Assembly: GCA_003141415.1 (NCBI GenBank)
Contig: PLLX01000152.1
Coordinates: 1-58,622, forward strand
DNA length: 58,622 nt
From: Bacteroidales bacterium
GTDB lineage: Bacteria; Bacteroidota; Bacteroidia; Bacteroidales; VadinHA17
Direction: 5' to 3'
Shown here: positions 6,681 to 29,774 of the stretch, in pieces
How the letters are laid out: the number at the start of each line of letters is the position of its first letter
Numbering within the stretch: the first letter of the stretch is position 1
The notes under the pieces: model-generated
Seen by the model: the letters and a program-made list of their open reading frames with translations, nothing else
Told to the model about the DNA's origin: nothing
Database searches by the model: none
Translations under genes and position numbers: made by a program

Positions 6681-7082
6681 ATGAAAAAACTGGCTTTGCT
6701 TTCTCTAATCTTGATTTCATGTAATCCTGCAAATCGTGCGATTGTTTATCTTAATGGATTTGAGCAGTTTGTTAACACTACTATCTCAGAAAATTCTGCC
6801 TATTCTTCGAAAAATTGGGCTGACGCTGATTCTACTTTCAAATATTACAAAAACTATTTCTCGGAAGAGAAGCTAAATCTTTTATCTGAAGATGACAGGG
6901 ATAAATTTATTCAGCTTGAGGGAAAATATGAGGGAGCAAGAACAGTTTATAGTACTCAAAAATTAATAAATGATGTGGAAGAAGGTGCAAAAGATTTTAG
7001 CAACCGGGCAAAAGGATTTATAGAAGGAGTGAGTAAGAGCATTGATTCCAATGTAATTAATAAAGTGTTAAAAAATAAATAA
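6681..7082 (+). CDS. Small lipoprotein, first gene of the cytoskeletal/kinase operon
   Basis: From the ATG at 6681 the product is 133 residues and starts MKKLALLSLILISCNPANR, a lipoprotein signal with lipobox LISC (Cys at 14). The open frame extends six codons upstream to a TTG at 6663, but the ATG gives a proper signal peptide. The mature part is short, charged and helical, and no family is recognised. It ends 9 bp before the next lipoprotein gene, so both are probably co-transcribed and may act together in the envelope. Confidence 0.7.
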   Translation: MKKLALLSLILISCNPANRAIVYLNGFEQFVNTTISENSAYSSKNWADADSTFKYYKNYFSEEKLNLLSEDDRDKFIQLEGKYEGARTVYSTQKLINDVEEGAKDFSNRAKGFIEGVSKSIDSNVINKVLKNK

Positions 7083-7091
7083 TATATTGTT

Positions 7092-8621
7092 ATGAAGAAC
7101 AAGTTTTTATTATTATCAGGAATTCTGCTGCTTTTTCTAAGTTTTGGTTGTAAGCAATCAGACCTGGTTCTGCAATGGGATAAAGTTAGAGATTACCATC
7201 TTCTTTACATGGGAATAGGACTGCAAAACCAAGACTTAAGAAATGTTGATTTTTACCTTGATTTTACTGAAGGTCTGAAAGTAGCTTTTCAAAATGATAA
7301 CAGCAAGAAATTTTTTGATGCAGTCATTAATTCAATGAAGATAAATACAATTGATTTTTATGAAGTAGCAAATGATTCTATTTCCCTGATTGAAAATATG
7401 CCAAAAGGAGACATGTTTGCAAAATTAGAAAATCCTTCAAATTATGATAAGGAATATGCACCTTTAGACAAAGCATTGGATAAAATAGCCGAGAGTAATA
7501 ATTTTTCAATATTTGTTACCGACGGAGAATTATGGAAAAAGAAAGTTGGAGAAAAGGCATCTGAAAGTCCATGGGCAAGGGAAGCATTTGCAAAATGGCT
7601 GAAAAAAGGTAACCGGATAGATTTTTATATTACTGACCATCCGGATGCGGGCAAAACAAAACATCTATTCTATATGATTTTTATACCTAAAAGTTTTAAC
7701 GGAGAAAAGCTCCCCTCAGATGATATTTCATATTTTCTTCAAAATGATATTGCAGCAAAAAGATTAGTTTACAGTAGCTTTACATTCAGCAATGATTTTT
7801 TTACCTTGAAACAGGATTATCCAACTGAACAATCTTCCGGTTCGGCTGAGGAAATGGCTCTCGATATGGGATCTTATAAGAAAGATTTAGACCTTGGTTA
7901 TGAATACATGGATTTTGCACTCGGCTGGAAAGACATTGTAAAATATATACGTAATGCAAAAGATGAAAATTCAGGTAATCCAATTCCAGGGGGGAAGGAT
8001 TTCATAAGGAAACTTTTTCTAAATGCAAAAAACAATGAATTATACCAGTTAAATGAAATTGGCATAAAAACCTACGATATTTATGAAGATTATTCCAAAT
8101 TTGAATTTTGCAAACAATGTCAGGCGAAACCTCCATTGTTCAAACTAGATGAAAAAGGCAATAAAGTGCTTGATTTGAACAATAATAATATGCCTTTTAT
8201 TCTTGAGGAAGGACTTAAAGGTTGTTATGACGAAAAGGGGGATCTTCTATCAGAAAGAAAATATTCGGGTCCAGATATTAAACCTATTGAAGAATTATTT
8301 CAGCTTGACAACAAACTTTTCAACTACACGTATTCTCGAGATACTGTAGGGGAAATAGGATTAAAAATACACCCTAACTTTAATGGGACACAATTATCAT
8401 CTACCCATGAGAATTTTGTAAAAGTTGATATACTATTGACCAAATGCAAACCAAATACTTCAAATCCGAAATTTGAAAAATTTATCTGGCAGGGCAAGCA
8501 GATAACTCAGAATAAAGCACTTTATGAAAGCATAATTCTTGCAATCCAGGATGCAAATCCAGAAGGGAAAGTAATATATTCTTACTATATAAAAACCCTT
8601 CCAAACAATTATTTTGAATAA
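7092..8621 (+). CDS. Large lipoprotein, possibly with a degenerate von Willebrand A fold
   Basis: 509 residues with a lipoprotein signal (SFGC, Cys at 20). The segment NVDFYLDFTEGLKVAF followed by helices and then FSIFVTDGELWKKK is arranged like a vWA domain: a first strand ending in an acidic loop and a later strand ending in TDG. The DxSxS metal site is not intact (DFTEG instead), so metal binding is doubtful. A small region has FCKQCQAKPP (CxxC). Downstream beta-rich part unknown. Placed before a membrane protein and the tubulin-like gene, it could be the envelope-side member of the system. vWA assignment is inference. Confidence 0.6.
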   Translation: MKNKFLLLSGILLLFLSFGCKQSDLVLQWDKVRDYHLLYMGIGLQNQDLRNVDFYLDFTEGLKVAFQNDNSKKFFDAVINSMKINTIDFYEVANDSISLIENMPKGDMFAKLENPSNYDKEYAPLDKALDKIAESNNFSIFVTDGELWKKKVGEKASESPWAREAFAKWLKKGNRIDFYITDHPDAGKTKHLFYMIFIPKSFNGEKLPSDDISYFLQNDIAAKRLVYSSFTFSNDFFTLKQDYPTEQSSGSAEEMALDMGSYKKDLDLGYEYMDFALGWKDIVKYIRNAKDENSGNPIPGGKDFIRKLFLNAKNNELYQLNEIGIKTYDIYEDYSKFEFCKQCQAKPPLFKLDEKGNKVLDLNNNNMPFILEEGLKGCYDEKGDLLSERKYSGPDIKPIEELFQLDNKLFNYTYSRDTVGEIGLKIHPNFNGTQLSSTHENFVKVDILLTKCKPNTSNPKFEKFIWQGKQITQNKALYESIILAIQDANPEGKVIYSYYIKTLPNNYFE

Positions 8622-8660
8622 CCTGTAATTAACTGATTATAAACCTCAAAACTTTATTTT

Positions 8661-9050
8661 ATGTATAGCCATTCGTATTCTTTTACAAATATAGGAGGAC
8701 TAATAAGTGTTACCTATATTTTTGCTATTGTTTGGGCTGTTGCCTGTCTTTTTATCTGTTGGTTAATAGCAAGTCTTATTGCATTTGAAGGTGGTAAAAA
8801 TCCAAGAGACGCATTTAAGAGAAGACTCTGGTTTTATGTTATCCTTGCGTTTAGTGGAATCAGTTTTTTTCTATGGAATCTTCTTTATGTTATAGGAATT
8901 ATTAAAGGTGTTCCTGCCCAGGATAAGTTTACCATCCATATAGCAATAACCACTTTTCTGGTATTTTTAGTATATTTCTTACTGGTCTTCATTGTATCAA
9001 AACTTTTTCCAAAATCAAAAATCGGGACGATCTTTCCCTCTAAAAAATAA
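8661..9050 (+). CDS. Three-helix inner-membrane protein of the operon
   Basis: 129 residues with three hydrophobic segments (about 12-38, 52-75 and 88-112) and a basic loop (GGKNPRDAFKRR) between the first and second, so the loop is likely cytoplasmic. No enzymatic motif. It lies 6 bp upstream of the tubulin-like gene and 39 bp after the lipoprotein gene, which suggests it links envelope and cytoplasmic parts. Family not recognised. Confidence 0.65.
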   Translation: MYSHSYSFTNIGGLISVTYIFAIVWAVACLFICWLIASLIAFEGGKNPRDAFKRRLWFYVILAFSGISFFLWNLLYVIGIIKGVPAQDKFTIHIAITTFLVFLVYFLLVFIVSKLFPKSKIGTIFPSKK

Positions 9051-9056
9051 CGTTAT

Positions 9057-10628
9057 ATGGAAGACAAATACTTCGTAATAGCAATCGGCGGTACCGGCAT
9101 GCGTTGTCTTGAAGCCTTCATACACACCTGTGCTATGGGAATGTATGATGGGAAGGAAATAACAATCCTGGCTTTGGACACAGATCTTGAGAATGGCAAC
9201 TTTGCAAGAGTGAAGAATCTTATCGACGCTTATAAACGTATAAAAGGACCCGATGAGAAAAGCCATGTGTCGCTTAAAGACACATTGTTCTCAGCAAAAA
9301 TCAGGTTCTATAAATATAGTCCTGATTATTCTGATTTCAACAAAAATGGAAAGTTTACCAGCCTTTTCGACTATAACAAACAGAAAGACAGGGACATTGC
9401 CAATCTACTGTTGAGCAAGAATGTACGGGAGTTTGACCTGAGACACGGATATAGGGCTCAGACCCATTTAGGTTCTCTACTTATGTATCATTCTATACTT
9501 AGTGATATCAGGAAGAATCAGAAATGTGATCTTGCAAAATTCATAACTGAAATCCTCGATGCATCAAATAATGGGATGCCAAAGGTATTTGTTCTGGGTT
9601 CTGTTTTCGGGGGAACAGGTGCTTCAAGTATTCCGGTTATCCCTAATGCTTTTAATGCCGCACTGCAAATCATAGATCCAAGTAAAAAGTTGGATAAAGT
9701 ATTATTTGGAGCCACATTGCTTACTTCCTATTTCACTTTCCCGGTACCGGATGAGGCTCAGAGAAAAAACGAAAAGGTTATTGCAAGCCACAACAACTTT
9801 TCTATTAATTCCCAGGCAGCTATGATGTTCTATGAAAATGATAATACTGTCAAGACTACATATAAGAGTTTTTATGTTCTCGGTACGGAGTCACTTAATT
9901 TCAAGACAGAACAACCAGGCAACAAAACCCTGACAGGTGGTCTTGAGCAAAAAAATGACAGTCATTTTATCGAGCTCATGGCAGCTTTTGCAGCATTTGA
10001 TTTTTTTAAAACACCAGTTACATCTCTTACTGAACACCATACAGCAAAATACTATTGCAGATCAATTGACGATAGCGGAAAACTTGAGTTTACTGATTTT
10101 GTTGGAGCAAATGAAGAATTTAATTTTGCTTCAAGATTTGCCGCACTTGTCGTTTCATCATTTCTGGCCAATCACCCAAAAGCAGAGTTATTTTCTCAGG
10201 CACAGTTGGGGAAAATCGAAAATTACAACACATCCGTGGACTTGCCAAGAGTTACAGCTCTCAAGGAATATATGAGTATGTTTCACTATAAAATTGATCA
10301 GAATAATAACATAGAAGATGGTTGGTTAAGACAGGTTCACCGTTCTGCAGGAGGAAGCGATAAGTTTCTGTTTCATCCTGAATTATTTAGTATATCGACT
10401 TTTAAACAGTTGGATAAGTTTGATTGGGGAAAATATCTTTACTGCAAAGACAATAATTATGCTGATTGTAATTTCTCTTCAGGTTTCTCTTCACCGTATG
10501 CAAAATTCAAATCTGAATTTCTTAAAGAGAATGATTCATATGAAATCGTGGACCCTATGGAGAAACTGATTAAAAGATCTTTTGATACGACTCTAAATAT
10601 TTACAAATTTTCAAAGAAGACCTCTTAA
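9057..10628 (+). CDS. Tubulin-like GTPase domain protein
   Basis: 523 residues. The N-terminus FVIAIGGTGMRCLEAFIH (GGTG at 11-14) fits the first nucleotide-binding loop of the bacterial tubulin-like family (Pfam Tubulin_2 type). The sequence VLGSVFGGTGASSIPVIP (FGGTGASS at 184-191) corresponds to the tubulin/FtsZ signature loop GGGTG[ST]G, with the final Gly replaced. Between them a DTDLENGNF motif follows a strand, as in the T3 region. The C-terminal third shows no recognised domain. Such proteins are cytoplasmic and are predicted to bind GTP; polymerisation is not proven for this family. It is embedded between a membrane protein and an ASKHA ATPase, which points to a complex. FtsZ itself is excluded by length and low similarity. 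Confidence 0.75.
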   Translation: MEDKYFVIAIGGTGMRCLEAFIHTCAMGMYDGKEITILALDTDLENGNFARVKNLIDAYKRIKGPDEKSHVSLKDTLFSAKIRFYKYSPDYSDFNKNGKFTSLFDYNKQKDRDIANLLLSKNVREFDLRHGYRAQTHLGSLLMYHSILSDIRKNQKCDLAKFITEILDASNNGMPKVFVLGSVFGGTGASSIPVIPNAFNAALQIIDPSKKLDKVLFGATLLTSYFTFPVPDEAQRKNEKVIASHNNFSINSQAAMMFYENDNTVKTTYKSFYVLGTESLNFKTEQPGNKTLTGGLEQKNDSHFIELMAAFAAFDFFKTPVTSLTEHHTAKYYCRSIDDSGKLEFTDFVGANEEFNFASRFAALVVSSFLANHPKAELFSQAQLGKIENYNTSVDLPRVTALKEYMSMFHYKIDQNNNIEDGWLRQVHRSAGGSDKFLFHPELFSISTFKQLDKFDWGKYLYCKDNNYADCNFSSGFSSPYAKFKSEFLKENDSYEIVDPMEKLIKRSFDTTLNIYKFSKKTS

Positions 10629-10710: not shown

Positions 10711-13700
10711 ATGAGCGATCCTAAACCATTACTTATAAAAAGTTCAGATACCAGGAGAACGACAAAAGGAGTATGGGAAGAATTGACCCAGGCCTGGTCA
10801 TATATAAAGGGAATAGAGACACCATCCACTACTGACACGGATGCTGAGGTTTTTAATTCAATGGTAACAGGTGTTCCAACTGTATGGGCTCGGGCCAGAT
10901 TATTCAAATATGCTTTTAAAAATGCAGGGGAAGACGATAAAAGTAATGCTTCGTTATTGCAAGTATATCGACAGATAAGGAACGAATGGAAAGGACTACT
11001 TGCCCTTTTGGCTATATTCCCTGGCAGAATTACTATCAAGGATAAAATTATAATGGATCCTAAAACAGATGACTTATTTGCTATCCCAGGAGCATTTGGC
11101 AGACTACTCTTTGACGATATAGATCTTTGGTGTGAGCCGGATAAGATTAAACCGGATCAAATACCCTTTATTCAACTCATTTATTATAACGATATACTTG
11201 TGGGGGCCACTTCTCCATATACAATGCTTTTTACAGCGGTTGATTACAGTAGCTTGCCGTCATTAGACATTCCGTGGTTTCGGAATGGCAAGTTTGAAGA
11301 TCCTTTTCAATTTGGTCTAAGTCCGGATAATCTTCAGCGGCTATTAATATTAGCACAAAATATTAATGAAAAGCTAGAAGGTTTTTATAAAAAACTTTAT
11401 AAAAACAGAGTAGACAAGGAGGATACACCATATAAAGAAATACACTCTGTAGTTGAAGAGATAATTGACAAGATTACTGGTCAAGGAATAGTTGCAGAAG
11501 GTTCTCTTGGGGAGTTAAGATTTGCTGAGCCTTTTTATGATATATTAAATTATAAGCAAACATTTTTCTTTGGCGAAGGACGGTTCAGCAAAACTCAGGA
11601 AAAGGATTTTATCCAGATTGACCCTTCTAAACTTTTGTTAGATAGTGATTATTTGTACCTCTTTACATCTCCCGATTCAAAATACCCTCTTTCTGAAATC
11701 TCGGCATATTTCATAAAAGTCCAATCTGAGGGTGAAACTTATTTTGCCGCTCTTCCCCTGAGTGCAGAGGGATTGAAAATATTCTTTCATCAGGTGGGAG
11801 ATCTTGTGATGCCTTCAGGTACACAGAACCAGGATATATCTTCGAATCTGAGTGCCTACCTTTTTAATGATAAGTTAAAAGTTGAATTACGCCTTAAGGT
11901 TGGAGGAGTTGCAATAAATCCAATCACAAGGGAGTACGGCATTAAATTCCTTGCAGAGCAGCAAAGATGCATAATAATGTGGCCGGGGTTTATTTCCCAG
12001 GGATGGAATCAGTATTTCCTTTATTCAGAATATCCATCAAACCACGTCAGTTTAAGGGCTATGCCATTCTTTAAAATGTACAATGCAGAAAAGAAAAGGT
12101 ACGAACCTATCCTAAATGAGAAAAATGAGATTATTACTATTGATACTCCTACAGATAAAGATGATATTAAAATAGCCCAGCTAGTTAAATATCCTGTTGA
12201 CACAGCTTCATCAGATGACTGGCCATATGAGATCATCAGATCCAGTCAGCCTTTGGCCGGCGTTGAGCTCCGAATGATGGTAAGCGGCAAGTATATTAAC
12301 TGCGGTTATCTGGTTGTTAAGAAACCGGATACTCCTAATATGTACCAGCCGATTAAAGATCTGAATACGGAGTCATCTTTTAAAGATGTAAAGTTTGGAA
12401 TAGATTTTGGCAGCAACAATACTGCAATGAGCTATAGCGTTGATAATGAAGCAGCTACTCCTCTTGCTTTTAAGAACATGCGCCGTTTCCTGCTTGGCTC
12501 TGAAGTTGTGGATCTAAAACATGAACAGACTGCACGGAAAGATGAGTTACTCTTTTTCCAGAATGAAGAGCCAAAGAATGGCCAGGTTAAATCATGGATA
12601 CATGATCACAAGGAAATTTACGCTTTGAGCAATCAGAAAGAGGGAATAGCTGGCGGAGTACCGGTTTTTGAGCCAAATATTAAGATCCATGACATGGACT
12701 CAAGGACAATTAAAACCAATGCCGGGAATATGCATTATAATACAAAATGGCTGACAGATCAGAAAGGGCAAGAGAAAAAGGGTGCATTCCTCCGGTCAAT
12801 AGTTCTTATGGCAGCAGCATCACTTTATTCTGAGACTAAGAAAATAAGTGAAATAAAATGGTCTTATCCTGGTTCATTTTCAAAATCTGATGTTAACACA
12901 TACAAAAATATCTTTGATGATCTGTCATCTCCATACTCCGGTTTGTCCACTTTTAAAGCCGGGGTACCTATTACAGAGGCTGAAGCAGTCTCTAAATACG
13001 TACTAAACACTGGGAGAGGGTATGCAGGTGATAATCTGATTCTCGGTATAGATGTTGGTGGAAGCACGAGCGATATACTGATTATTGCAGGCGACAGAAA
13101 AAATTTAGGATATGTTTTCAAAAAACAGAGTTCTCTTCGCTTGGCATCAGGAATACTTGCAGATGTTATTCTTAAATCACCAGACCTGCGAAATACTCTC
13201 TATTTGTTTCAGAGCTCTGCAGATTGCCCTTTCAGAATAGCTGGCATCGATACTATAAAAACCAAGCCGCAAACATCTCCTTTCTACCTTAATTCAATAC
13301 TTGATAGACTTCAGACAGAGGACGATTTTAATAGATTTTACAGGTTTGTGGCAGGAAAGAATCCTGCAGTTTTTGCCATCCCTGCTTATATAAGCGGATT
13401 ACTGTTGTTCTTTGCGGGTCAGCTAGTCGCAAATGTAGTTAAGGGATTACCTCCTGAGGATGCACAAACGATCAGTCGTGTTGATTTCTACAGTTTTGGT
13501 AAAGGTGGTAAAATATTTGAATGGCTTTATGTATTTCCAGGTACATCGGATGCAGAAAGCTATTACAAGACTTGCTTCAAGAGCGGACTCGGTAACGAAC
13601 TAAATATTACCCTCGATTTAGGCAAAAGAAAAGACATGCTTAAAGACACTAAGCTTGAAGTGGCAAAAGGACTTACATCGCAGGAAAGTAAAGGACTTAG

Positions 13701-14127
13701 TTATGAGGATCTTGCAAAGATTAGAAGCGAGTCTGACATAATTGGAGAAAAAGGGTATAAGTTCCATCCTCGCGGTGAGAATCCTATTGAATTGTCGATT
13801 GATGCACCTGCAATTGATGAATACTTCACAGACATTTCATTTTCTCTTGAATTGCCAAAGGAATTTGTTGAATTTAATAGGTTCCTTGACATTTTCCTTG
13901 ATTTTTCAGGTCAGCTGGCTAATACTATTAATATCAATGAGCTCAACAAACTGAAGTCTGAACTATACAAGGAATTAATGACCTTTATTTCCTCTGATCC
14001 GGAGTACATTAAGGCAATGAATAGTAAGGATAATGTTAAAGGTGGTAGCGGATTCCGCCATTCACTCCTTATCTATGAAGGAATGTGTTATCTGCATAAG
14101 CATCTCATTCCAAATTTATTTAAATAA
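10711..14127 (+). CDS. Large actin/Hsp70-fold (ASKHA) protein
   Basis: From the ATG at 10711 the protein has 1138 residues (the open frame runs 21 codons further upstream to 10648, but MSDPKPLL follows an AT-rich spacer and starts a normal soluble protein). The C-terminal half is an ASKHA ATPase: FGIDFGSNNT at 562-571 is the phosphate-1 loop, GIDVGGSTSD at 779-788 the phosphate-2 loop, and DFYSFGKGGKIFEWL near 925-940 may be the adenosine loop. The first 550 residues are mixed alpha/beta of unknown type. No signal or membrane segment. Lies 82 bp after the tubulin-like gene and 1 bp before the PP2C gene. It could be a chaperone-like switch or a filament former; similarity to SrfB-type Hsp70-like proteins is possible but unproven. 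Confidence 0.7.
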   Translation: MSDPKPLLIKSSDTRRTTKGVWEELTQAWSYIKGIETPSTTDTDAEVFNSMVTGVPTVWARARLFKYAFKNAGEDDKSNASLLQVYRQIRNEWKGLLALLAIFPGRITIKDKIIMDPKTDDLFAIPGAFGRLLFDDIDLWCEPDKIKPDQIPFIQLIYYNDILVGATSPYTMLFTAVDYSSLPSLDIPWFRNGKFEDPFQFGLSPDNLQRLLILAQNINEKLEGFYKKLYKNRVDKEDTPYKEIHSVVEEIIDKITGQGIVAEGSLGELRFAEPFYDILNYKQTFFFGEGRFSKTQEKDFIQIDPSKLLLDSDYLYLFTSPDSKYPLSEISAYFIKVQSEGETYFAALPLSAEGLKIFFHQVGDLVMPSGTQNQDISSNLSAYLFNDKLKVELRLKVGGVAINPITREYGIKFLAEQQRCIIMWPGFISQGWNQYFLYSEYPSNHVSLRAMPFFKMYNAEKKRYEPILNEKNEIITIDTPTDKDDIKIAQLVKYPVDTASSDDWPYEIIRSSQPLAGVELRMMVSGKYINCGYLVVKKPDTPNMYQPIKDLNTESSFKDVKFGIDFGSNNTAMSYSVDNEAATPLAFKNMRRFLLGSEVVDLKHEQTARKDELLFFQNEEPKNGQVKSWIHDHKEIYALSNQKEGIAGGVPVFEPNIKIHDMDSRTIKTNAGNMHYNTKWLTDQKGQEKKGAFLRSIVLMAAASLYSETKKISEIKWSYPGSFSKSDVNTYKNIFDDLSSPYSGLSTFKAGVPITEAEAVSKYVLNTGRGYAGDNLILGIDVGGSTSDILIIAGDRKNLGYVFKKQSSLRLASGILADVILKSPDLRNTLYLFQSSADCPFRIAGIDTIKTKPQTSPFYLNSILDRLQTEDDFNRFYRFVAGKNPAVFAIPAYISGLLLFFAGQLVANVVKGLPPEDAQTISRVDFYSFGKGGKIFEWLYVFPGTSDAESYYKTCFKSGLGNELNITLDLGKRKDMLKDTKLEVAKGLTSQESKGLSYEDLAKIRSESDIIGEKGYKFHPRGENPIELSIDAPAIDEYFTDISFSLELPKEFVEFNRFLDIFLDFSGQLANTININELNKLKSELYKELMTFISSDPEYIKAMNSKDNVKGGSGFRHSLLIYEGMCYLHKHLIPNLFK

Positions 14128-14128: not shown

Positions 14129-14887
14129 ATGTTCCGTTTGTTTTATGATTTATTCGGATCAGGAAAAGCTATAATATCCGCCAAGAGTGAAAAAGGATTA
14201 AAGAATAACCAGGAAGATTCTTATTTTATTTCTACGGTAATCAGAGGCTGCAGGCTGATTATTGTTGCCGACGGTGTGGGTGGTCATGGTCATGGAGACT
14301 TTGCAAGTGAATTTTGTGTTAGGGCATTCAGCAATGAATTCAGAAACATTGAAAAAGGATTCAGTCCTTCAGGCTTCCTGGAACAGACATCAATCATTAT
14401 AGCTGAGAAAATCCTGCAGAAAACAAAGGAAGATGAATCATATAAGAACTGTGGCACAACTGTATCAGGCTTTTTACTTTCAGGGAGTGAGTACTATACC
14501 CTGAACATTGGAGACAGCCGGGTATATCTGTTCAGGGAAGAATTGTTAATTCAGCTCACAGAAGACCATTCACTTGTAAAAAAAATGGTGAAGGAGGGTC
14601 TTATTACTGAGGAAGAAGCCTTGGTACATCCAAAACGAAATATTATGACTTCTGCACTGGGTCAGCCGCTGGAAATGATGACCATTTCAATTAAGGGTCC
14701 TCAGAAATGGATGAAAGGAGACATCATCCTGGCATGCACTGATGGCGTACACGGATTCATAAATGATGACAGACTTTCGGGAGTAATTAAAAAGAGTCCA
14801 CCTGAAGCACTGGCGGATCATATTGTTGATTATGCTCTGAAGTCAGGAAGTACTGATAATATAACTTGCTGTTGCATTAAACTTTGA
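14129..14887 (+). CDS. PP2C-family Ser/Thr protein phosphatase
   Basis: Start chosen at ATG 14129, one base after the stop of the previous gene, giving 252 residues; the frame continues upstream inside that gene but adds no recognisable sequence. All PP2C metal-binding motifs are present: NNQEDSYF, VADGVGGHG, GDSRVYLFRE, LACTDGVHGF and GSTDNITC. The length fits a single catalytic domain of the Stp/PrpC type. It should remove phosphate from Ser/Thr residues in the cytoplasm, and the natural partners are the kinases encoded at 16291, 18142, 25205 and 27933. Tight spacing shows co-transcription. Confidence 0.92.
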   Translation: MFRLFYDLFGSGKAIISAKSEKGLKNNQEDSYFISTVIRGCRLIIVADGVGGHGHGDFASEFCVRAFSNEFRNIEKGFSPSGFLEQTSIIIAEKILQKTKEDESYKNCGTTVSGFLLSGSEYYTLNIGDSRVYLFREELLIQLTEDHSLVKKMVKEGLITEEEALVHPKRNIMTSALGQPLEMMTISIKGPQKWMKGDIILACTDGVHGFINDDRLSGVIKKSPPEALADHIVDYALKSGSTDNITCCCIKL

Positions 14888-14892: not shown

Positions 14893-16284
14893 ATGGAAAA
14901 GAAAATTTCAATAGTATTTACCCCAGAATACTTGATAGTTGCGATGGCACCTGCAAATCGGTTCGAGGTTATTAAGGATTCTGATAACCAGGATAAATTC
15001 TGGCTATACTTTTTTACTGGGCTGGAACTGGAAATTGACAACAGTGACAGGTATAAAGAACCATTCCTTGAGAACAAGCCAGGTTATTTTGGGGACATTT
15101 ACGAGTTGCTTTTAACACGAACAACTTTTGGTAAGTATAGTCTTGAAATGGGATCACTTTTCAAACCGATGCTTGAAAGGATCAAAAAAAAATACGTCGA
15201 CGCTTTATCCCAGCTCAGTGATTCGTTTGAGGAGTTAGATGGCCCTATATTTGTTAGTGCTATTGCACATTCATCGATAAAAAAAGAAGCATTTGAAGTC
15301 CTTAAGAAATATTTTGAAGAAATAAAATTAAGGTTATCATTTTCTCCACTATCATTCCCTTACCTTTTTATTCGCAGTCAGTATAGCAATATTCAAGCGC
15401 CTGACGTTGCCTTAAATTTTATTATCATAGACGGATTAACTGATGATTTGAAATTCATAGCAATATCCATGGGAGCTGCTGGTGCATTTGATACTATTGG
15501 AGATCAACTATTCGATAATGAAGGCATGGATCCAAGATTAAATATTATTCTTAGTCAAATAATTGACGATATTAACCGCAAAGAGGGTCTGGAATTGACA
15601 CCTGAGAAAAAGAGCTTCTATATGAAAAAATATTCCAGCTTAGCAAGGCAGGTCCTCGAAAATTTGAATAAGTCGTCATCAGGACGTTTTAAACTTGAAA
15701 TGGATCTTCTTATCGATGGGATATCATATCATTACTCATTTACATTTCAGAAGAAGGTTATTGAAAATACAGTTCAGGATTACATTCATAAAATTAGAAT
15801 TGAGCTTGAACACTTTCTTGCCAGGTATAAGCTGACTCATCAGACGATTGGGAAAGTCTTTATACTTGGAGATAGCCTTAACATTGAAGGATTTCAAGGG
15901 AACCTAAATCTTGAATCTCAGAAAGTAATTTCTTTAAGAAGTGATGAAGTATACACGGGATTATTAAAAGAACTTCTGGCAAATAAAGTTGAGAGTACTT
16001 CTGTGAAGACTGATAGTAATATTGATAAGATTGAATCGTCTTTACTTAATCCAGGAACTCAGATCGAAGTTGGCTGGATTTCAAGCAAGGGATCATTCAG
16101 ACATCTTAAAGCAACTTATGTAAGCAACAAAAAATTTTCGGTATTTGAGAGTGAGAATTGTGATCTTAAAACAGGGATGGATTTCACTTCAGATAAGTTA
16201 GAATTTAATAAGGTAAATGCTCTAAAGGTTGGGAACCTTAAATTTAATACAGGTCCTTTAACAATTTTGAGAATCATTAAATAA
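14893..16284 (+). CDS. Degenerate ASKHA (Hsp70/actin)-like protein
   Basis: 463 residues, no signal. No catalytic motif is intact, but the order of elements resembles an Hsp70 nucleotide-binding domain: NFIIIDGLTDDLKFIAISMGAAG followed by FDTIGDQLFDNE recalls the phosphate-2 strand-turn-strand and the following GGEDFDN segment of DnaK; IELEHFLARYKLTHQTIGKVFILGDSLNIEGFQGNL recalls the adenosine-motif helix and strand. The glycines that contact phosphate are missing (GLTDD), so it probably does not hydrolyse ATP. Lies 5 bp after PP2C and 6 bp before a kinase gene. I infer a pseudo-ATPase partner of the large ASKHA protein. Confidence 0.5.
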   Translation: MEKKISIVFTPEYLIVAMAPANRFEVIKDSDNQDKFWLYFFTGLELEIDNSDRYKEPFLENKPGYFGDIYELLLTRTTFGKYSLEMGSLFKPMLERIKKKYVDALSQLSDSFEELDGPIFVSAIAHSSIKKEAFEVLKKYFEEIKLRLSFSPLSFPYLFIRSQYSNIQAPDVALNFIIIDGLTDDLKFIAISMGAAGAFDTIGDQLFDNEGMDPRLNIILSQIIDDINRKEGLELTPEKKSFYMKKYSSLARQVLENLNKSSSGRFKLEMDLLIDGISYHYSFTFQKKVIENTVQDYIHKIRIELEHFLARYKLTHQTIGKVFILGDSLNIEGFQGNLNLESQKVISLRSDEVYTGLLKELLANKVESTSVKTDSNIDKIESSLLNPGTQIEVGWISSKGSFRHLKATYVSNKKFSVFESENCDLKTGMDFTSDKLEFNKVNALKVGNLKFNTGPLTILRIIK

Positions 16285-21315: not shown

Positions 21316-22242
21316 TTAGGAAAAGGCAATATCCAGGAGTATCCTTTCAACTCCAAGTTCTTTATCCCATACTTTTTGAGATTCTTCTTTTGAGCTAGAG
21401 TCAAGATGCTCATACTTGGATAACTCGGTTAAAAGAATTTTGACTTTTTGAATATCACTTTCTATAGAGTGGAAATTCAAAGCCCTTTTTGCCAAGTTAA
21501 GAAGATAATAAACTTCTCCGTTAACTGTTGAATCCTGGAAAACATCGCTGGGAAATATTCTGGCTTTTGATTTTAAAAGTTTCCTATAATAATTGATAAC
21601 GCCATTTTCTTCAACACTCTCCGATATAAGAGGAAGATAGTGTACTTCAGCAGTTTTCCCATCATCGGAAGTTTCAAATTCAAATGGTGAACTCGAAATC
21701 GCGAATGGGAGCCACCAGCCATTTATCCCGACTATTTTTGCCTTTCCGGCCTGGAATGAACCGAATATTGAATTCTCTATTCTAAGCATTTCATCAACAA
21801 AAATAGCTCCAAGAACAATAGAATTTACTATTGATACTTGTTTCGCCCTGATATTCCCAAAAACCAGTGCATTTTCCAGTTTAATATAATTACTGATAAT
21901 ATCTCCTTTTACCATAACTCCCGCTTTATTCAAATCTCCTATAACGCTCTCTTCAGGAGGTTTATTGGTTTCCATTATAGCAATTGACATAGTAGCATTG
22001 ATTCCGGACATGAACCTTATTGGATTGCCCGGAATAGATCCTGCTTCAAGAGTTATCTCTTCGGTAGCTAATACTGGTCCATTAACGGTACCAACCCCTA
22101 TATTTTTAATATTCTGAGCAAATATGCCACCATTGACAGTAAATGGGCCTCTCAAAATAAGATTTCGTAACAATTCAGATTGCGTCGAAGGATAAAAATT
22201 CCCGTTTACTTCGTTTTGTAGTTCTACGTTATTAGGATCCAT
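21316..22242 (-). CDS. Bactofilin-like beta-repeat protein (putative polymer-forming)
   Basis: 308 residues with no signal. From about residue 10 to 180 the sequence shows short repeating beta-strand units rich in Gly, Val, Ile and Asn (NGNFYPS, GPFTVNGGIFAQNIKNI, GTVNGPVLATEEITLEAGS, GVMVKGDIISNYIKLENALVFGNIRAKQVSIVNSIVLG), the pattern of a right-handed beta-helix as in bactofilins and other polymer-forming proteins. The C-terminal 100 residues are helical. Last gene of the minus-strand operon (kinase, membrane protein, coiled-coil protein, this). A cytoskeletal role would fit the tubulin-like and ASKHA genes across the terminator. Family assignment rests on repeat pattern only. Confidence 0.5.
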   Translation of the reverse strand: MDPNNVELQNEVNGNFYPSTQSELLRNLILRGPFTVNGGIFAQNIKNIGVGTVNGPVLATEEITLEAGSIPGNPIRFMSGINATMSIAIMETNKPPEESVIGDLNKAGVMVKGDIISNYIKLENALVFGNIRAKQVSIVNSIVLGAIFVDEMLRIENSIFGSFQAGKAKIVGINGWWLPFAISSSPFEFETSDDGKTAEVHYLPLISESVEENGVINYYRKLLKSKARIFPSDVFQDSTVNGEVYYLLNLAKRALNFHSIESDIQKVKILLTELSKYEHLDSSSKEESQKVWDKELGVERILLDIAFS

Positions 22243-22247: not shown

Positions 22248-23264
22248 TTATTTTTTAGCAGATTCAATGGTTAAAGGAGGATTATTCTTAAGCGAAACTA
22301 TGAGGAATTTCATATATTCCTCACTAATGAAACCTTGCTTTGCACATTCATTAAGATTATTTTCCATATTGCTAATCTCATTTTCAGACATATTTCTCCA
22401 GGTAACCCTGGAGGCCATCTTACTCATATCAACATTTGTTCTTTGAGTAAGCTGAACTTTAACTTTATCATTATCCTTCGTGCCAGAATAAATATCGCAA
22501 TTAAAGAATACCTTATCATTATTTGATTCCAATATAGTTACAGGCAATTCAATAGGACCACTGAATCTGAATGAGTCAGACTTTATATTTTGAACGGCAA
22601 AATCAAATGCAGCCCTGTTAGATTCAAACTCAGCGATTTTAACATCAACTGCCTTTAACAGATTTGTTAAGATCTCTTCACGCTTTGATTTTATCTTATC
22701 AATTGTGGCGGTTGAATTATTGAATAATTCAATATGCTGGCTTTTTAATCTCAGGTAGATGGTTTTAAGATAGTGCAATTCCCACACCTCAAATATGTAT
22801 TTCCCTAGGCGAGTAATGTCTTTTACGTAGCTGTCCTTCACCTGCTCATTGGCTGTGTCAAATTTGTTATTGATTTTCGCCAGGCGTGTAAAGGTTTTTG
22901 TGTGTTCTTTCTTTATTCTCTGGAAAGCAGTATGAATCAAGGAAATATCTTCTGATAGGTTGGATATATGTTCCAGGATGTTTGTCTGTGCATCTACCTC
23001 AATTGTCCTCGTAATTTCATTTTTTACAGATGTAAGACGCTCAAGCTCGATAACCATCTGAGCCATTAGATCTCTGTTCAGAGCTGAAATGCCACCGCTG
23101 ACACTGCTTAATCCACTATTAACATTGCCTAGGCCGTTGCTTGTGGTAGTGTTAAGAGTTCGAATATCATTTTTAAGTTGACCAATGATCTCTGAAATTC
23201 CATCAACCATTATTTTCATTGATCTTGTATCAATTACTGCTGATAGTGTAGTACCTTCTGCCAT
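22248..23264 (-). CDS. Coiled-coil protein of the minus-strand operon
   Basis: 338 residues, no signal or membrane segment. The first 230 residues are heptad-like and helical (SEIIGQLKNDIRTLNTTTSNGLGNVNSG, then long Leu/Ile/Lys/Glu stretches), with a Gly/Ser patch near 45-62. The C-terminus (FSGPIELPVTILESNNDKVFFNCDIYSG) is more beta-like. No known family. Five bp from the next gene and 27 bp after the previous one, so certainly co-transcribed. It could be a structural adaptor that clamps a filament or scaffold. Confidence 0.65.
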   Translation of the reverse strand: MAEGTTLSAVIDTRSMKIMVDGISEIIGQLKNDIRTLNTTTSNGLGNVNSGLSSVSGGISALNRDLMAQMVIELERLTSVKNEITRTIEVDAQTNILEHISNLSEDISLIHTAFQRIKKEHTKTFTRLAKINNKFDTANEQVKDSYVKDITRLGKYIFEVWELHYLKTIYLRLKSQHIELFNNSTATIDKIKSKREEILTNLLKAVDVKIAEFESNRAAFDFAVQNIKSDSFRFSGPIELPVTILESNNDKVFFNCDIYSGTKDNDKVKVQLTQRTNVDMSKMASRVTWRNMSENEISNMENNLNECAKQGFISEEYMKFLIVSLKNNPPLTIESAKK

Positions 23265-23291: not shown

Positions 23292-25181
23292 TTACTTCTG
23301 TGTTAAATAAAACTTTTCCTTGTTCCTGACCTGGAGAGTATAATCTTTGAGATCACCCCTGACAAGCATTACGCTTTCTGGTTCTTTTTCCAGATTAGCC
23401 TCCATTGTGTCGGCTTCTTGGAAAACTGTTTCAACTTTGACTTCATCAGAGGCAAGATAGGATTTCATCCTGCTGATAGTACTACTATTGAGAATATCCT
23501 GGGAAGTGTAAAAGTCCATTGATAATTTAAGTTTTTGCTCACCAACTCTGGCTTTTACTGCACTCTCTTCAAGCCTGTTCCTAATAGGTCTGAGCTCTTC
23601 GGTAAAGATCTTTACCTCTTCACGTAATTCTGAATTCTCCTGTTTTTTATTTTCTCTGAGTTCAAGCTCTTTTTCCCTTATTATTCTTACTTTCTCATCA
23701 TGTTTTTCAAGCCACAATTTATCCCAGATTGGATTAATAAGGTCTTCCTTTATTTTCAGGATCCGTGATTTTAAAGCTTCTACATCAGTAAACTCTTCTC
23801 CTGTAAGCTGGCAAATCCATTTCTTCTTAAATGTATTATAAAACAATATAGCATTCTTGTAATGTTTTGAATTCTCTTCCTCTTCATCTGGTGCTATCTC
23901 AAGAGACATATCCTTAATCAGATCTGCATATTTATCATATCTTTTCTGCAGGTATGAATTCAGTTCTGAATTTGTTATCTTTTCATTTTCCGGCATATTC
24001 TTGAGTATACCCTTAACTTTTGCCTGAATATCCCTTAATTTGATCATGTCGTCTTTCTTATAAAAGGATTCAAATTCAGCGACTTCAATTTTATCAAAAT
24101 CATTACCATCGTACTTTCTGATAGAATTTTCAAGTAGTTTTGATCCGCTTAACTTCGGATTATAAAATCTGGTAAGCGGGAAATCATATATATCTTCTAT
24201 TTCTTCCACACTTTTCAGGAGGACATCATTTATAGAATAATTCCGATTATCAGTCAGGCTAAAGGATAGATCATCCATCTCTTTATAAACGCTTCTTATA
24301 AGCATCTCAATTTTTTGGTAGCCGAATGACTTAACTATTTCAACCTCAGAATTTGTCATCCTTAATTTGTCAGTGAATGTGCTTCTGTCTCTTGAAGTCA
24401 TCACTGATATTAAATCATTAGAGACATCGCGGAACTTAGGTTCAAGGTCTTTTATGATTGTAGGAATTTTGTCATCTTTCTCATAAATAGGCAGGTTAAT
24501 GTTAATTACTGAGCAATCAGTAATAAGCTCATCAAGAAGATTCAATATATCTTCAACATCTTTTTCAATCCCGGTTAAATAAATAGTATCTGAAAATACA
24601 CTTTCTTGTCCCGGAGGAAGCAGAACTGGAAAATCTTTGTTTAATTTTGATCTCCGGTCCATTAGTTCTGTAAGCTTGTTTTCGCAATTTTCTATCAAAG
24701 AGCAATTAATGCTCGAATTGTCTATGATTTCTGAAACATCTATAATCAATGAACCATCTCCGAATGGCAAAATTTCAGCGCAATAGTTTACGGTTCCGAT
24801 TTTCTTAACCAATTGAGGCATTTTTGCATTCAGCTCTTTAACAAGCCGATCTCTGTCTGCCTTTAAGCCATCCAGCTTCTCGTTATTTGTTTTATAACTA
24901 AAGTAAAGCCAGATGGCACCTGCTAAAAGTACCACCAGCAGGAAGTAACTTACCACAAAAGCAAGAATAATCCCTACTAAACAAACAATTGAAGGTAATA
25001 TCAAGTATTTATTATTTTTAATCTCTTCTTCCTGTTTTTTAACAGAAAGCAAGCTTTTTTGCAGTTTTGCATAATGTTCAGTTATGGCATTATGATTTTC
25101 AAGTGCAAAAAGAAGTGCAACATCCATCCCCTTTTCAAGGGGTTGTTCTTTGTAAAAAATTGAGGAGGGAATTGATTTCAT
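23292..25181 (-). CDS. Membrane hairpin and coiled-coil protein
   Basis: 629 residues. Two adjacent membrane segments (about 58-95, YLILPSIVCLVGIILAFVVSYFLLVVLLAGAIWLYFSY) are flanked by coiled coil, so both ends should be cytoplasmic. A beta/alpha region follows (AEILPFGDGSLIIDVSEI), and a long helical charged C-terminus (about 480-600). No enzymatic motif recognised. The topology suits a membrane anchor for a cytoplasmic scaffold. It sits between the kinase gene at 25205 and the coiled-coil gene at 22248. Confidence 0.6.
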   Translation of the reverse strand: MKSIPSSIFYKEQPLEKGMDVALLFALENHNAITEHYAKLQKSLLSVKKQEEEIKNNKYLILPSIVCLVGIILAFVVSYFLLVVLLAGAIWLYFSYKTNNEKLDGLKADRDRLVKELNAKMPQLVKKIGTVNYCAEILPFGDGSLIIDVSEIIDNSSINCSLIENCENKLTELMDRRSKLNKDFPVLLPPGQESVFSDTIYLTGIEKDVEDILNLLDELITDCSVININLPIYEKDDKIPTIIKDLEPKFRDVSNDLISVMTSRDRSTFTDKLRMTNSEVEIVKSFGYQKIEMLIRSVYKEMDDLSFSLTDNRNYSINDVLLKSVEEIEDIYDFPLTRFYNPKLSGSKLLENSIRKYDGNDFDKIEVAEFESFYKKDDMIKLRDIQAKVKGILKNMPENEKITNSELNSYLQKRYDKYADLIKDMSLEIAPDEEEENSKHYKNAILFYNTFKKKWICQLTGEEFTDVEALKSRILKIKEDLINPIWDKLWLEKHDEKVRIIREKELELRENKKQENSELREEVKIFTEELRPIRNRLEESAVKARVGEQKLKLSMDFYTSQDILNSSTISRMKSYLASDEVKVETVFQEADTMEANLEKEPESVMLVRGDLKDYTLQVRNKEKFYLTQK

Positions 25182-25204
25182 ATCTATAGGAGGTAATTAT
25201 TGAT

Positions 25205-26584
25205 TTATTGCAAGTAAAATGAATCAGTAAAATTTTTGGCAATCCTGGAATACTCTAATGTTATTTTATAGTTCTTGCTGGTATCGGAAATGAGTATGTT
25301 AAACTCTTTCCTGAAAGAAGTACCCTGAAAAAAAAGTTTATTATTTCCGTTAGCAGCATCGACTGATACATTAAAGCCCCTTTTAATGGAGACTTTTTCT
25401 ATTAATCGATTGTTAAAGAAAAGATCAACCAGAAGGTCCCCCGGTAAACTAGCTCCGAAAAATTGAATCGAGATCTTACCATAATCCCTTTTAGTCATAT
25501 TGGGCGGAGGATTGAAATTAGTTCCCGGAGATATTAATGTTGCTTCAGATTGATAGTTCTGGAATGCTGATTTATTTATTACTATCTCTTTTAAACTGTT
25601 TAATCGCTCAATATTTTCAATATCCTTAATTATTTCTGAACAATAGTTGTAACGATCATTTTTAATATTTTCAATACATTTGGAGATAATCACTTTCCAT
25701 TCCTCGCTTTTTATTTCATTTGCCTTTACCCTATCTGTGGAGCGAGTGAACATTTCGAGTAGGATAATACCAAATGAATAAATATCTGCTCTTCGATCTA
25801 TTTCAGACTGTCCAGTTTTCATCTCAGGAGCCATATATTTAGGAGTACCTGCATTCGCAATATTATCGACCATTGAATCTGAATAAGCAAGTCCCAAATC
25901 AATCAGTTTAACATTATCTCCAATTGTGGTGATCAAAATATTGTCTGGTTTTAGGTCACGGTGAACTACCTGGCTTTTATGCAGATAGCCAATTACATCT
26001 AATAATTCCAGTGATATTCTGGTAATATCCTTCTCATTAATACCCGAAGATATTAATATCGATAGAGGAGTTCCATCAACATAATCCATCACAATATAGG
26101 GACCATTTTCATCGCTCCCTTTCTCGTTCATCACTACCAGATTAGGATGATCGAGTTTTATTCCATTTGTATATTCTTTAAAGAACAGTTCTATTCTCTT
26201 CTCATCATGTAAAAATTCTTTCTTTAATCGTTTGATTATTACTTTTTTAATTTTATCCTGACGAGCGAAATATACATCGCTCATTGCACCCTGGAATATA
26301 GTTTTAGTAATATCGGTATATTTTTCTCCTGCTTTATTACTATTGTTGAAGAGATTTCCTGCAGATTGATTCTGGAAATTTGTAAAACCAGAACCTCCTA
26401 AATATTCTGATTTTTCTAATTCTTTCAAATCTTCATTCAGAGAAGGTTCGTTTTGTACAAAACCGGAACTTTCTTCTGGTTTATCTGGTTCAGATTTTAA
26501 AACAAAACCCGATCCGCTTTCCTCGGGTGTAATCGGTGAAAGTAATTTTGAAAGATTTGGATAATATATATTCACAAAAACCAT
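25205..26584 (-). CDS. Ser/Thr protein kinase with GSGF linker and C-terminal beta domain
   Basis: 459 residues. It lacks the N-terminal helical domain of the other kinases but keeps the linker with GSGF (24-27), SSGF (39-42) and GSGF (64-67). Kinase domain about 88-335: loop FQGAMSDVYFA, Lys118 (VIIKRL), HRDLKPDN with Asp210, DLG with Asp229, GTPKYMAPEM activation segment. The C-terminal 90 residues (YGKISIQFFGASLPGDLLVDLFFNNRLI...) are beta-rich, possibly an immunoglobulin- or PEGA-like domain. No membrane segment. First gene of the minus-strand operon, with a good promoter at 26729-26758. Probably active. Confidence 0.87.
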   Translation of the reverse strand: MVFVNIYYPNLSKLLSPITPEESGSGFVLKSEPDKPEESSGFVQNEPSLNEDLKELEKSEYLGGSGFTNFQNQSAGNLFNNSNKAGEKYTDITKTIFQGAMSDVYFARQDKIKKVIIKRLKKEFLHDEKRIELFFKEYTNGIKLDHPNLVVMNEKGSDENGPYIVMDYVDGTPLSILISSGINEKDITRISLELLDVIGYLHKSQVVHRDLKPDNILITTIGDNVKLIDLGLAYSDSMVDNIANAGTPKYMAPEMKTGQSEIDRRADIYSFGIILLEMFTRSTDRVKANEIKSEEWKVIISKCIENIKNDRYNYCSEIIKDIENIERLNSLKEIVINKSAFQNYQSEATLISPGTNFNPPPNMTKRDYGKISIQFFGASLPGDLLVDLFFNNRLIEKVSIKRGFNVSVDAANGNNKLFFQGTSFRKEFNILISDTSKNYKITLEYSRIAKNFTDSFYLQ

Positions 26585-27185: not shown

Positions 27186-27344
27186 TTATCAAATCGCATA
27201 AAAAAGATAGATGATTCTGGTAAAAGAATCTATGGAAGCCCCAGGACTGCAATAGCAATCTTAAAAGAAGAATTACATATGGCAATAACAAGAGAAATCC
27301 GATACTTGCAGGACATTCATTGTTTTTCTTTTCTGAATGGGTAG
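27186..27344 (+). pseudogene. IS3-type transposase fragment (decayed)
   Basis: The open stretch reads IKKIDDSGKRIYGSPRTAIAILKEELH, which fits the YGSPRI...L segment in the OrfB transposase of IS3-family elements. Only about 50 codons remain between stops; upstream bases in another frame (RPLKENCKY) may be a further piece. No inverted repeats seen. Not functional. Confidence 0.4.
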
Positions 27345-27387
27345 ACAAAAATTTATTTAGAAAATTCTGCATGGAAATAATTCATAA

Positions 27388-27687: not shown

Positions 27688-27731
27688 GGACAGATGTGGC
27701 GTTCTTTAAAATTGTCAATTAGTAGTTTATA

Positions 27732-27914
27732 CAAAATCTTTCAAAGACTCCATTATTTACTTTTTTAATTTCATTAATCATTCATCAAACAACAATAAGA
27801 GTTCACCTCATTCTGAAAATATTAGTTTTATTGGTTTACTTTCTGTTAGCATATGCATTTTGTCGGGGAATTTCAGGCACGTTTCACGATATTTTTTTAA
27901 ATTTCATGGATTAA
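27732..27914 (+). pseudogene. 3' relic of a lost kinase gene
   Basis: In one open frame, LISLIIHQTTIRVHLILKILVL and LLAYAFCRGISGTF closely follow the C-terminal membrane region of the kinase at 16291 (LISAVIHKTSYRFQPIFKILVV, LAYSFCRGFSGSY). The relic ends with a TAA at 27912-27914. Only about 60 codons of the last membrane segments remain; kinase and linker are gone. The IS256 fragment directly upstream suggests transposon-mediated deletion. Confidence 0.75.
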
Positions 27915-27932
27915 AACTAATATATAATATTT

Positions 27933-29774
27933 ATGTCAACCGATAAGTTTAAGCTCCTCCTTGAAACTTTTGTCCAGAAGGGCAATATTACTGAAGATGA
28001 AAGAAACTATCTCTATAAACTGGGTAAAAGTGCGATGCTTGATAAGAAATCCATTGATATGCTGATCGATAGCCAGCTTAATTTTGTAAGAAGTTCATCT
28101 GCCGGGCAGATTCAACAGCCAAAAGGATCCGGATTTGTTCAGGACTCAGAAGAAGAGCCAACCGGATCTGGATTTACCGGAAGGTCCAATAATAAAAATG
28201 AGGGTTCGGGATTTGAGGATCAGAACCAATCCGGTTCAGGGTTTTCTGTTGGTGAATCCTTCTCTTCAGCAAAGTTTACAAATGAAAAGATTCTTGATAG
28301 TCAGGGTGCAATGAGCATTATCTCTGAAGCGAAGCAAGGGTCAAGATATGTAGTAATTAAACGCTTGCTTCCAAAATATCAGGATGATCAGGCCCGAAAG
28401 GAGTTGTTTTACAAAGAGTATGAGTTTTTATCATCACTGCAGCATGATAATATTGTAAATGTTCATGATAAGGGAGAAGACGAGAAGGGTCCTTATTATT
28501 TCATGGAAAAAGTAAGCGGTGATACTCTTGAAAACAGATTATTAGCCGGGAAACTGAACATTGAGGAGATAAAAAATATCTCGTTAAAAGTCCTCGATGC
28601 ACTTCAGTATTTGCACAGCAGAGGAATAATTCATCGCGACCTTAAACCCGGTAATATAATGGTCAACAATAAAACCGGTAAGGTAAAACTGATTGACCTG
28701 GGGTTGGCATATTCGGATGAATTTATAGACAATCTGTCTAAAGCAGGGACTCCAAGGTACATGGCTCCTGAAATAACCAGTTCAAAAGAGTTTGATAAAA
28801 CAACGGATATTTATTCATTCGGGTTAGTCCTGCTTGAGATGTTTACGAAGGATATTAATCTGACTGGAATATCAAAAGTTAAGCCTCAGGTCTGGCAAAG
28901 TATCATTAACAAGTGTATTAAAGCCGAAAAAAAATCGAGATATCAGTTTTGCAATGAAATTATTAATGATATAAATAAGATCAGTGACAAAAAACATGAC
29001 GATGCATTTGAAAAACTGATTGAACATGCTATAGCAGATGGTGTAATAACAAAGAAGGAGAAAGATGTTCTTTTAAAGAAAGCAAAGGAAATCGGGATGG
29101 AGGAGGATGAACTTGAAATGATTCTTGAATCAAAATTATACACTAAACTGCAGAGTCTTAAAAAAGGTGAGGGGACTGTTAAATGCGCCAGTTGTGGGGA
29201 GTTAATCCCCCCCTTTAGTCGAATATGTCCAAACTGTGAGCATATTGTTTCATCAGCAGACCAAACCGGCTTGGATAATATCATTGAGTCAACAGAATCA
29301 GCTCTTGCCAAGTTAAAATCTTCGAATTTGTTAACGAAGAATCTGCCAAATTATGCTAATCAAAAGGATAATATTATTGAAAAAGGTCAGAATAAAAATT
29401 CTATAGATGAGCATCATGGTACTAAGGTGGAGAAAAAATCCGTAATAAAAAATAATATAAATCTCATTTCTTTCATGGCAGATTTGTCAACAGAACCTCA
29501 AATTATAAAAGTGAACATTAAATTACTCCCCTTCTTTTGTGCATGGGAACAGATTACTTCTGATAAATATTCTTATTTTCACTTATCCGATAAAACTGTG
29601 CCTTTTGCTTTTGCCTATATGGATAAAAGTTTAAATGGAGCAAATGATTTAAGGAGACTAGTTAGTGATGGATTCTTTCATAATGTGACCCTTGAATTAG
29701 TATATAAAACAATTTTTTTATATAGCGATAAAAGTGAACATAAAGAACTGCTTATTACAAAATTTGTCCAGTAG
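27933..29774 (+). CDS. Ser/Thr protein kinase with TerB-like domains, GSGF linker and zinc ribbon
   Basis: 613 residues. Helical domain (1-55), linker with four GSGF motifs (65-68, 78-81, 91-94, 101-104), kinase domain (about 113-352; Lys143, HRDLKPGN, DLG), second helical domain (about 355-400, ADGVITKKEKDVLLKKA), then a zinc-ribbon KCASCGELIPPFSRICPNC (two CxxC pairs), a polar linker and a C-terminal domain of unknown type. Unlike the kinases at 16291 and 18142 it has no membrane segment, so it should be cytosolic. It follows the relic of another kinase, which points to tandem duplication. Probably active. Confidence 0.87.
   Translation: MSTDKFKLLLETFVQKGNITEDERNYLYKLGKSAMLDKKSIDMLIDSQLNFVRSSSAGQIQQPKGSGFVQDSEEEPTGSGFTGRSNNKNEGSGFEDQNQSGSGFSVGESFSSAKFTNEKILDSQGAMSIISEAKQGSRYVVIKRLLPKYQDDQARKELFYKEYEFLSSLQHDNIVNVHDKGEDEKGPYYFMEKVSGDTLENRLLAGKLNIEEIKNISLKVLDALQYLHSRGIIHRDLKPGNIMVNNKTGKVKLIDLGLAYSDEFIDNLSKAGTPRYMAPEITSSKEFDKTTDIYSFGLVLLEMFTKDINLTGISKVKPQVWQSIINKCIKAEKKSRYQFCNEIINDINKISDKKHDDAFEKLIEHAIADGVITKKEKDVLLKKAKEIGMEEDELEMILESKLYTKLQSLKKGEGTVKCASCGELIPPFSRICPNCEHIVSSADQTGLDNIIESTESALAKLKSSNLLTKNLPNYANQKDNIIEKGQNKNSIDEHHGTKVEKKSVIKNNINLISFMADLSTEPQIIKVNIKLLPFFCAWEQITSDKYSYFHLSDKTVPFAFAYMDKSLNGANDLRRLVSDGFFHNVTLELVYKTIFLYSDKSEHKELLITKFVQ

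Follow-up and report, generated by a model that had tools for sequence, protein, structure and literature searches.

Gene content and the tubulin-fold and actin-fold pair

The DNA analysed here, contig PLLX01000152.1 of the Bacteroidales assembly GCA_003141415.1, is 58,622 nucleotides long (hereafter the window) and belongs to an assembly of 5.26 Mb that is 81.75% complete. At positions 6681–29774 it carries a gene cluster in which a plus-strand run with short gaps between genes encodes two likely lipoproteins, a small membrane protein (TM), a tubulin-like protein (TUB), a large actin/Hsp70-type protein (ASKHA1), a PP2C phosphatase, a degenerate Hsp70-like protein (ASKHA2) and two Ser/Thr kinases (K1 and K2). 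A minus-strand run follows, with genes for a bactofilin-like protein, a coiled-coil protein, a membrane coiled-coil protein and a third kinase (K3), and a fourth kinase gene (K4) then lies on the plus strand. The original prediction had read a phosphorylation-controlled cytoskeletal cluster in this DNA, and its observation that tubulin-like, ASKHA-type, PP2C and four Ser/Thr kinase genes share one locus was confirmed.

TUB (9057..10628, +) is predicted to have an FtsZ/tubulin fold in its N-terminal domain. The fold call is based on the structural model, because the TUB profile found no match in PDB by sequence at E 1. The score against Pfam PF13809 was below the cut-off (15.3 bits against 27), and a precomputed PF13809 label is carried by many of the 120 relatives among the matches listed, at 45–53% identity. 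Most FtsZl1 members have an extended coiled coil and an alpha-helical C-terminal domain; residues 365–523 of the TUB model are mostly helix or loop, and no long coiled coil is seen in its secondary structure. TUB groups with FtsZl1 (Tubulin_2), a set of proteins that Makarova and Koonin introduced in 2010 (PMC2875224), and the canonical FtsZ is encoded elsewhere in the same genome. Its conserved motifs suggest that TUB binds nucleotide.

ASKHA1 (10711..14127, +; open frame from 10648) consists of an N-terminal region of about 550 residues and an actin/Hsp70-fold domain with phosphate 1, phosphate 2 and adenosine motifs, as judged from the predicted structure and the motifs themselves. DFGS, DxGGxTxD and GKG are invariant across 22 ASKHA1 sequences, from which the protein is probably an ATPase. 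Its strongest matches are divided evenly among Hsp70, MreB, MamK and FtsA. The folds anticipated for the tubulin-like and the large ASKHA members were thus supported by the predicted structures. Membership of the SrfABC group was considered and discarded, as the Pfam matches of the 22 ASKHA1 members included no SrfB family at E 0.05.

ASKHA2 (14893..16284, +) is degenerate. The phosphate motifs are absent from the conserved columns of its family alignment (10 sequences), and its matches to HSP70 (E 0.0011, under the cut-off) and DnaK (E 0.0012) are weak. In hhalign comparison with the DnaK of its own genome the window protein reached a probability of 54%, and the family only 13.5%. The profiles of ASKHA2 and ASKHA1 have no detectable similarity, so paralogy of the two is not shown. 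One ASKHA2 relative (L162:8491-11109) has an SSGF motif near its C-terminus; it is adjoined by two identical 195-residue genes, explained either by a perfect duplication in tandem or by an error of assembly.

Upstream of TUB, the likely lipoprotein of the core (LIPO; 7092..8621, +) has a hydrophobic N-terminus with a terminal FGC, identified by eye, and TM (8661..9050, +) has three hydrophobic segments according to a hydropathy scan.

Conservation of the core across genomes

We compared 58 TUB loci, the window included; 18 came from one contig scan, more from genome searches, and three cyanobacterial loci and one Prevotella locus from plasmid-collection records. Some of these loci belong to one genus and some to one genome, and L068 was left out because it duplicates the L020 record. 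ASKHA1 lies within two frames downstream of TUB in 50 of the 57 loci that have a downstream frame, TM within two frames upstream in 47 of 58, and a LIPO profile match within four frames upstream in 45 of 58. All three stand near TUB in 38 loci (52 loci have at least two upstream frames). The LIPO-TM-TUB-ASKHA1 arrangement is therefore recurrent in Bacteroidota and on cyanobacterial plasmids. The close and distant families are homologous for ASKHA1 (E 2.6e-61) and LIPO (E 3.7e-10), and for TM the comparison gave E 5.8e-5 with a probability of 65.6%. Within the LIPO family, 7 of the 13 close members and 12 of the 15 distant ones have a lipobox-like pattern. The order TUB-ASKHA1-PP2C-ASKHA2 of the window is repeated in genome G371, together with an opposed kinase gene. 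Two genomes encode a second TUB: in G422 (C69, L112) it is of the close type, lies behind LIPO and TM and is cut by the contig end, and in G305 (C184, L082) it belongs to a distant-type TUB-ASKHA1 pair.

The original prediction proposed that conserved co-occurrence across Bacteroidota would support it, and for four of the proteins this is what we found. With the own genome counted, TUB occurs in 23 of 393 genomes of the order, and TUB profile matches were obtained in 13 of 395 genomes. Close-type TUB, defined by a cut at E < 1e-79 that we chose ourselves (the next genome stands at about 1e-18), is present in 12 of the 393 genomes, spread over eight families. All 12 encode ASKHA2, versus 6 of the 381 others; the Fisher p of 8e-19, for which the two samples of 393 genomes were treated as identical, is only nominal because the genomes are related. 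ASKHA1 was found in 11 of the 12 genomes and in none of the six that have ASKHA2 without close-type TUB; one of these six (G467) has a distant TUB. LIPO was likewise found in 11 of the 12, and in one of the six (G350). A single genome accounts for both misses, namely G312, which is 70% complete and has TUB at a contig end.

The association exceeds one shared neighbourhood, because the genes often sit on different contigs: TUB and ASKHA1 are separated in this way in G330, G331 and G619, and ASKHA2 and TUB in 10 of the 12 close-type genomes, the own genome and G371 being the exceptions. The genes thus recur beyond the genome in which they were first noticed.

Kinases, phosphatase and variable partners

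The PP2C gene (14132..14887, +; open frame from 14033, start set from relatives) matches PP2C_2 with 52.7 bits (cut-off 24) and the Stp1 type with 192 bits, under the cut-off of 230; the motifs DGVGGHG, GDSR, TDGV and DN are present. Eight of the 18 ASKHA2 genomes, from five families, have PP2C as a direct neighbour of ASKHA2 (that of the window, G371, G619, G548, G680, G350, G312 and G330). G619, G548, G680 and G350, all of family f106, carry a GSGF kinase, PP2C and ASKHA2 as one uninterrupted block; TUB and ASKHA1 lie away from this block in the first three of these and were not found in G350.

The four kinases account for all Pkinase matches of the own genome. K1 (16291..18090, +; Pkinase 132 bits) consists of an N-terminal helical unit, the kinase domain, a GSGF linker and C-terminal membrane segments, and K2 (18142..21192, +; 138.6 bits) has helical units, a GSGF linker, membrane segments and a long C-terminal region. 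K3 (25205..26584, −; 130.5 bits) has a GSGF linker and neither a membrane segment nor the N-terminal helical unit. K4 (27933..29774, +; 143.5 bits) has two helical units and a GSGF linker, and no membrane segment. The linkers of the four kinases contain 12 GSGF/SSGF motifs versus 0.26 expected, and none of 20000 linker shuffles reached 12. The N-terminal and C-terminal helical units of K1, K2 and K4 align together (83%, E 9e-6), and K4 matches TerB with 18.7 bits, under the cut-off of 24.4. A zinc-ribbon-like segment in K4 (window 29175-29243) and a MORN-like stretch near the C-terminus of K2 (21088-21150) were also noticed, both under cut-off. Among 38 genomes searched, relatives included, at least one kinase was present in 27, and 20 regions with a part of these kinases were inspected. 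The predicted co-occurrence of PP2C and kinases with the core therefore holds for a part of the genomes, with PP2C linked in 8 of 18.

In some relatives the core is followed by genes of another kind. TerD genes stand after TUB-ASKHA1-ASKHA2 in three loci (L009, L010 and L018), and in L069 the TUB-ASKHA1 pair and one further, unassigned gene are followed by three TerD genes; the calls rest on Pfam for L010 and one L069 gene and on profiles for the others. Since these genes follow the core where the window has PP2C and kinases, the output or regulator looks exchangeable. A 192-residue family occupies the TerD position elsewhere; it has no Pfam match, and hhalign aligned it with TerD at 46% (E 2e-4), versus 0.1% for three controls. 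This TerD-like family follows ASKHA2 in several Bacteroidota loci (L168:15697-16875, L012:17407-17985, L020:7877-8455). The window cluster itself gave no match to TerD, TerC or TerY, the sub-cut-off TerB match of K4 being its sole Ter trace. OmpA genes occur near the core in L020 and L069.

The module can also be cargo of mobile elements, because on one IMG/VR contig (L168:2950-15637) relaxase and tyrosine integrase genes directly precede LIPO-TM-TUB-ASKHA1-ASKHA2. The scan of viral contigs yielded one relative. Distant TUB proteins (23–27% identity) were found in six plasmid-collection records, five of them cyanobacterial and the sixth a 1.77-Mb Prevotella record.

The minus-strand genes fared differently. 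The original prediction counted three cytoskeletal fold classes, the third being the bactofilin-like protein (21316..22242, −), and this count was not upheld for the conserved system. The window protein has no match to PF04519; four of the eight family members match it, at best with a marginal E of 0.016, and against PDB the family found only nitrophorin (E 0.19–0.2). Besides its own record the protein has seven relatives, one of them cyanobacterial (P0216, Limnofasciculus baicalensis; 45% identical). The adjoining gene for a membrane and likely coiled-coil protein (23292..25181, −) is apparently lineage-specific, with one further match in 393 genomes (E 1.5e-4; two stops interrupt the matching frame), and neither this protein nor the bactofilin-like one has a match in the plasmid collection. 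We therefore rejected bactofilin as a third conserved class; for it and for the likely coiled-coil protein (22248..23264, −), membership of the conserved core is not established, and these genes may have been added locally, with K3 as their link to the rest.

Interpretation of the locus

The FtsZ-FtsA pair joins a tubulin-fold protein to an actin-fold, membrane-linked ATPase. TUB is similarly paired with the actin-fold ASKHA1, whereas here the canonical FtsZ is encoded elsewhere and the matches of ASKHA1 are not centred on FtsA, which it exceeds almost three times in length. What has been observed is the gene order, the genome-level co-occurrence of TUB, ASKHA1, ASKHA2 and LIPO and, by structure prediction, the folds of TUB and ASKHA1; on this basis we see about an even chance that the locus encodes a membrane-anchored, nucleotide-driven assembly, FtsZ-FtsA-like outside cell division and predicted to be switched by phosphorylation. 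TUB and ASKHA1 would work together in the manner of FtsZ and FtsA. Judging from genomic context, LIPO and TM may anchor the complex and sense the periplasm, and ASKHA2, without phosphate motifs, would not be an ATPase but either an adaptor or a target of phosphorylation. The repeated GSGF linkers could offer the kinases sites for multivalent docking or for autophosphorylation, while PP2C would reset the kinases; in some relatives TerD-type genes would take the place of PP2C and the kinases after the core as an exchangeable output or regulator. We infer the assembly, its phosphorylation targets and its purpose from these data; the most likely role would be a response to envelope stress or a defence response, carried partly on mobile DNA, although this is the least certain step. 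More tentatively, the locus could represent a widespread, partly mobile two-cytoskeleton machine in which a tubulin-family GTPase and an actin/Hsp70-family ATPase are obligate partners on a lipoprotein-linked anchor, and a pseudo-ATPase adaptor connects them to interchangeable GSGF kinase/PP2C or TerD/TerB modules.

Several results weigh against a phospho-switched assembly of this kind. The genomes with close-type TUB are related by kinship (three from f61, three from f106) and are not independent. The module is a rare accessory: TUB, ASKHA2 and LIPO were found in none of four genomes of the same genus or family, and ASKHA1 was found in 5 of 296 genomes of the phylum (own counted). ASKHA2 was undetected in 10 of the 11 distant-type TUB genomes of the order. 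LIPO and TM do not adjoin TUB in several close-type genomes. Ten of the 18 ASKHA2 genomes have no PP2C beside ASKHA2: in five of these (G305, G422, G519, G467 and G352) the neighbours of ASKHA2 are visible and do not include PP2C, in four (G311, G331, G364 and G378) a contig end lies near ASKHA2, and in G567 the ASKHA2 match itself is weak. The kinases of relatives also sit away from the locus and are not exclusive to it, the opposed kinase of G371 lacks GSGF, and GSGF/SSGF occurs once in TUB and once in ASKHA1, far from any linker repeat. PADLOC, applied to 10 proteins with K3 as the sole kinase, returned kinase models for K3 (among the best 25 of 36) and one marginal match, and assignment to a defence system was rejected. 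Finally, the T6-H7 elements escaped recognition in the FtsZl1 family when Makarova and Koonin looked at it (PMC2875224), and any polymerisation of TUB is hypothetical.

Ter systems, reportedly described by Anantharaman et al. in 2012, resemble the locus in their TerD/TerB-like partners, known here from relatives, in the kinase with PP2C, and in the TerB-like units of the kinases. An envelope stress response of Ter type, in which the TUB/ASKHA pair would be a chaperone-like scaffold for Ter proteins and TerB-like kinases would relay the signal, draws on the TerD genes behind the core in L009, L010 and L018 and behind TUB-ASKHA1 in L069, on the 192-residue family in the same place in other loci, and on the mutually aligning helical units of K1, K2 and K4 with the weak TerB match of K4. 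However, the window cluster has neither TerD nor TerC nor TerY, its TerB match is under the cut-off, and the distant loci checked, L069 excepted, had no TerD match; we regard this reading as rather unlikely, at perhaps one chance in a few. Slightly better placed, yet still doubtful, is membrane remodelling or vesicle formation by an FtsZl1 filament with ASKHA1 as its membrane-linking partner. The proposal of 2010 placed FtsZl1 at the centre of a system that remodels membranes and also comprises vWA proteins, a GTPase, kinases and OmpA; its neighbourhoods contain Ser/Thr kinases and, in several genomes, OmpA, and most other neighbours were reported to lack recognisable domains (PMC2875224). The locus shares with that system the protein family and its association with kinases (here four), the membrane-associated neighbours, the OmpA genes that L020 and L069 carry close to the core, the presence of a divergent FtsZ-like protein alongside a conventional FtsZ in the same genome, and the patchy spread that includes Bacteroides and cyanobacteria. 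In contrast, the vWA domain of most FtsZl1 operons had no match in 19 window proteins at E 0.1, and the diverged P-loop GTPase frequent in those operons had no family match among them. The 2010 proposal was itself inferred from context, and a reviewer of the paper suggested transport or signalling in its place (PMC2875224).

The remaining alternative is a GTPase-centred conflict system, in which tubulin, HSP70 and kinase/PP2C would be effectors of a threat-sensing switch. In Kaur et al. (2020; PMC7159879), tubulin, HSP70, protein kinase with a zinc ribbon, and PP2C are themes of the neighbourhoods of GAP1-N2 DO-GTPase systems, and their assemblies are regarded as cytoskeleton-like and regulated; it would also fit that the core was found on mobile DNA (L168) and on plasmids of cyanobacteria. 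Those themes are, however, non-overlapping and come from firmicutes and actinobacteria, whereas they are joined here, and neither DO-GTPase nor GAP1, like vWA, had a match in the 19 window proteins at E 0.1. A conflict system is improbable, and the least favoured of the readings considered.

The original prediction knew of no named system with this set of genes, which was too strong, given that TUB falls with FtsZl1 (PMC2875224) and that the themes of Kaur et al. (2020) overlap (PMC7159879). The set with its actin-fold partner does appear undescribed: as far as the literature compared was available, FtsZl1 has been reported neither with such a partner nor with PP2C/GSGF-kinase or TerD modules, and the constant actin/Hsp70-fold partner, the second, degenerate ASKHA, PP2C and the kinases with repeated GSGF set the present locus apart. 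We found no description of a tubulin-ASKHA pair with PP2C among the papers listed by a literature search that mostly did not extend to subscription papers. FtsZl1-type tubulins have been known since 2010, and the literature compared, in its available parts, gives them no partner of actin fold and no function that has been tested; a paper of 2023 does not consider the Tubulin_2 group further, because its members are sparse and divergent (PMC9871819). In one large FtsZl1 group a putative ATPase of actin/Hsp70 fold, a degenerate ASKHA and a lipoprotein are retained even on scattered contigs, which defines a complex that can be tested. Control of tubulin-fold and actin-fold proteins by a kinase and a phosphatase of their own would, to our knowledge, be a rare case in bacteria.

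The cluster begins with a small likely lipoprotein gene (6681..7082, +, with its start at the ATG at 6681), the product of which matches DUF6565 with 30 bits (cut-off 24.5) and has a lipobox-like N-terminus by eye. A few kilobases upstream of the cluster, window 1251-3830 (−) encodes an 859-residue AAA_16 and TPR protein of STAND-like architecture, and beyond the cluster the FecR, SusC-like (TonB-dependent receptor) and SusD-like genes at window 40280-46516 constitute an ordinary nutrient-uptake locus.

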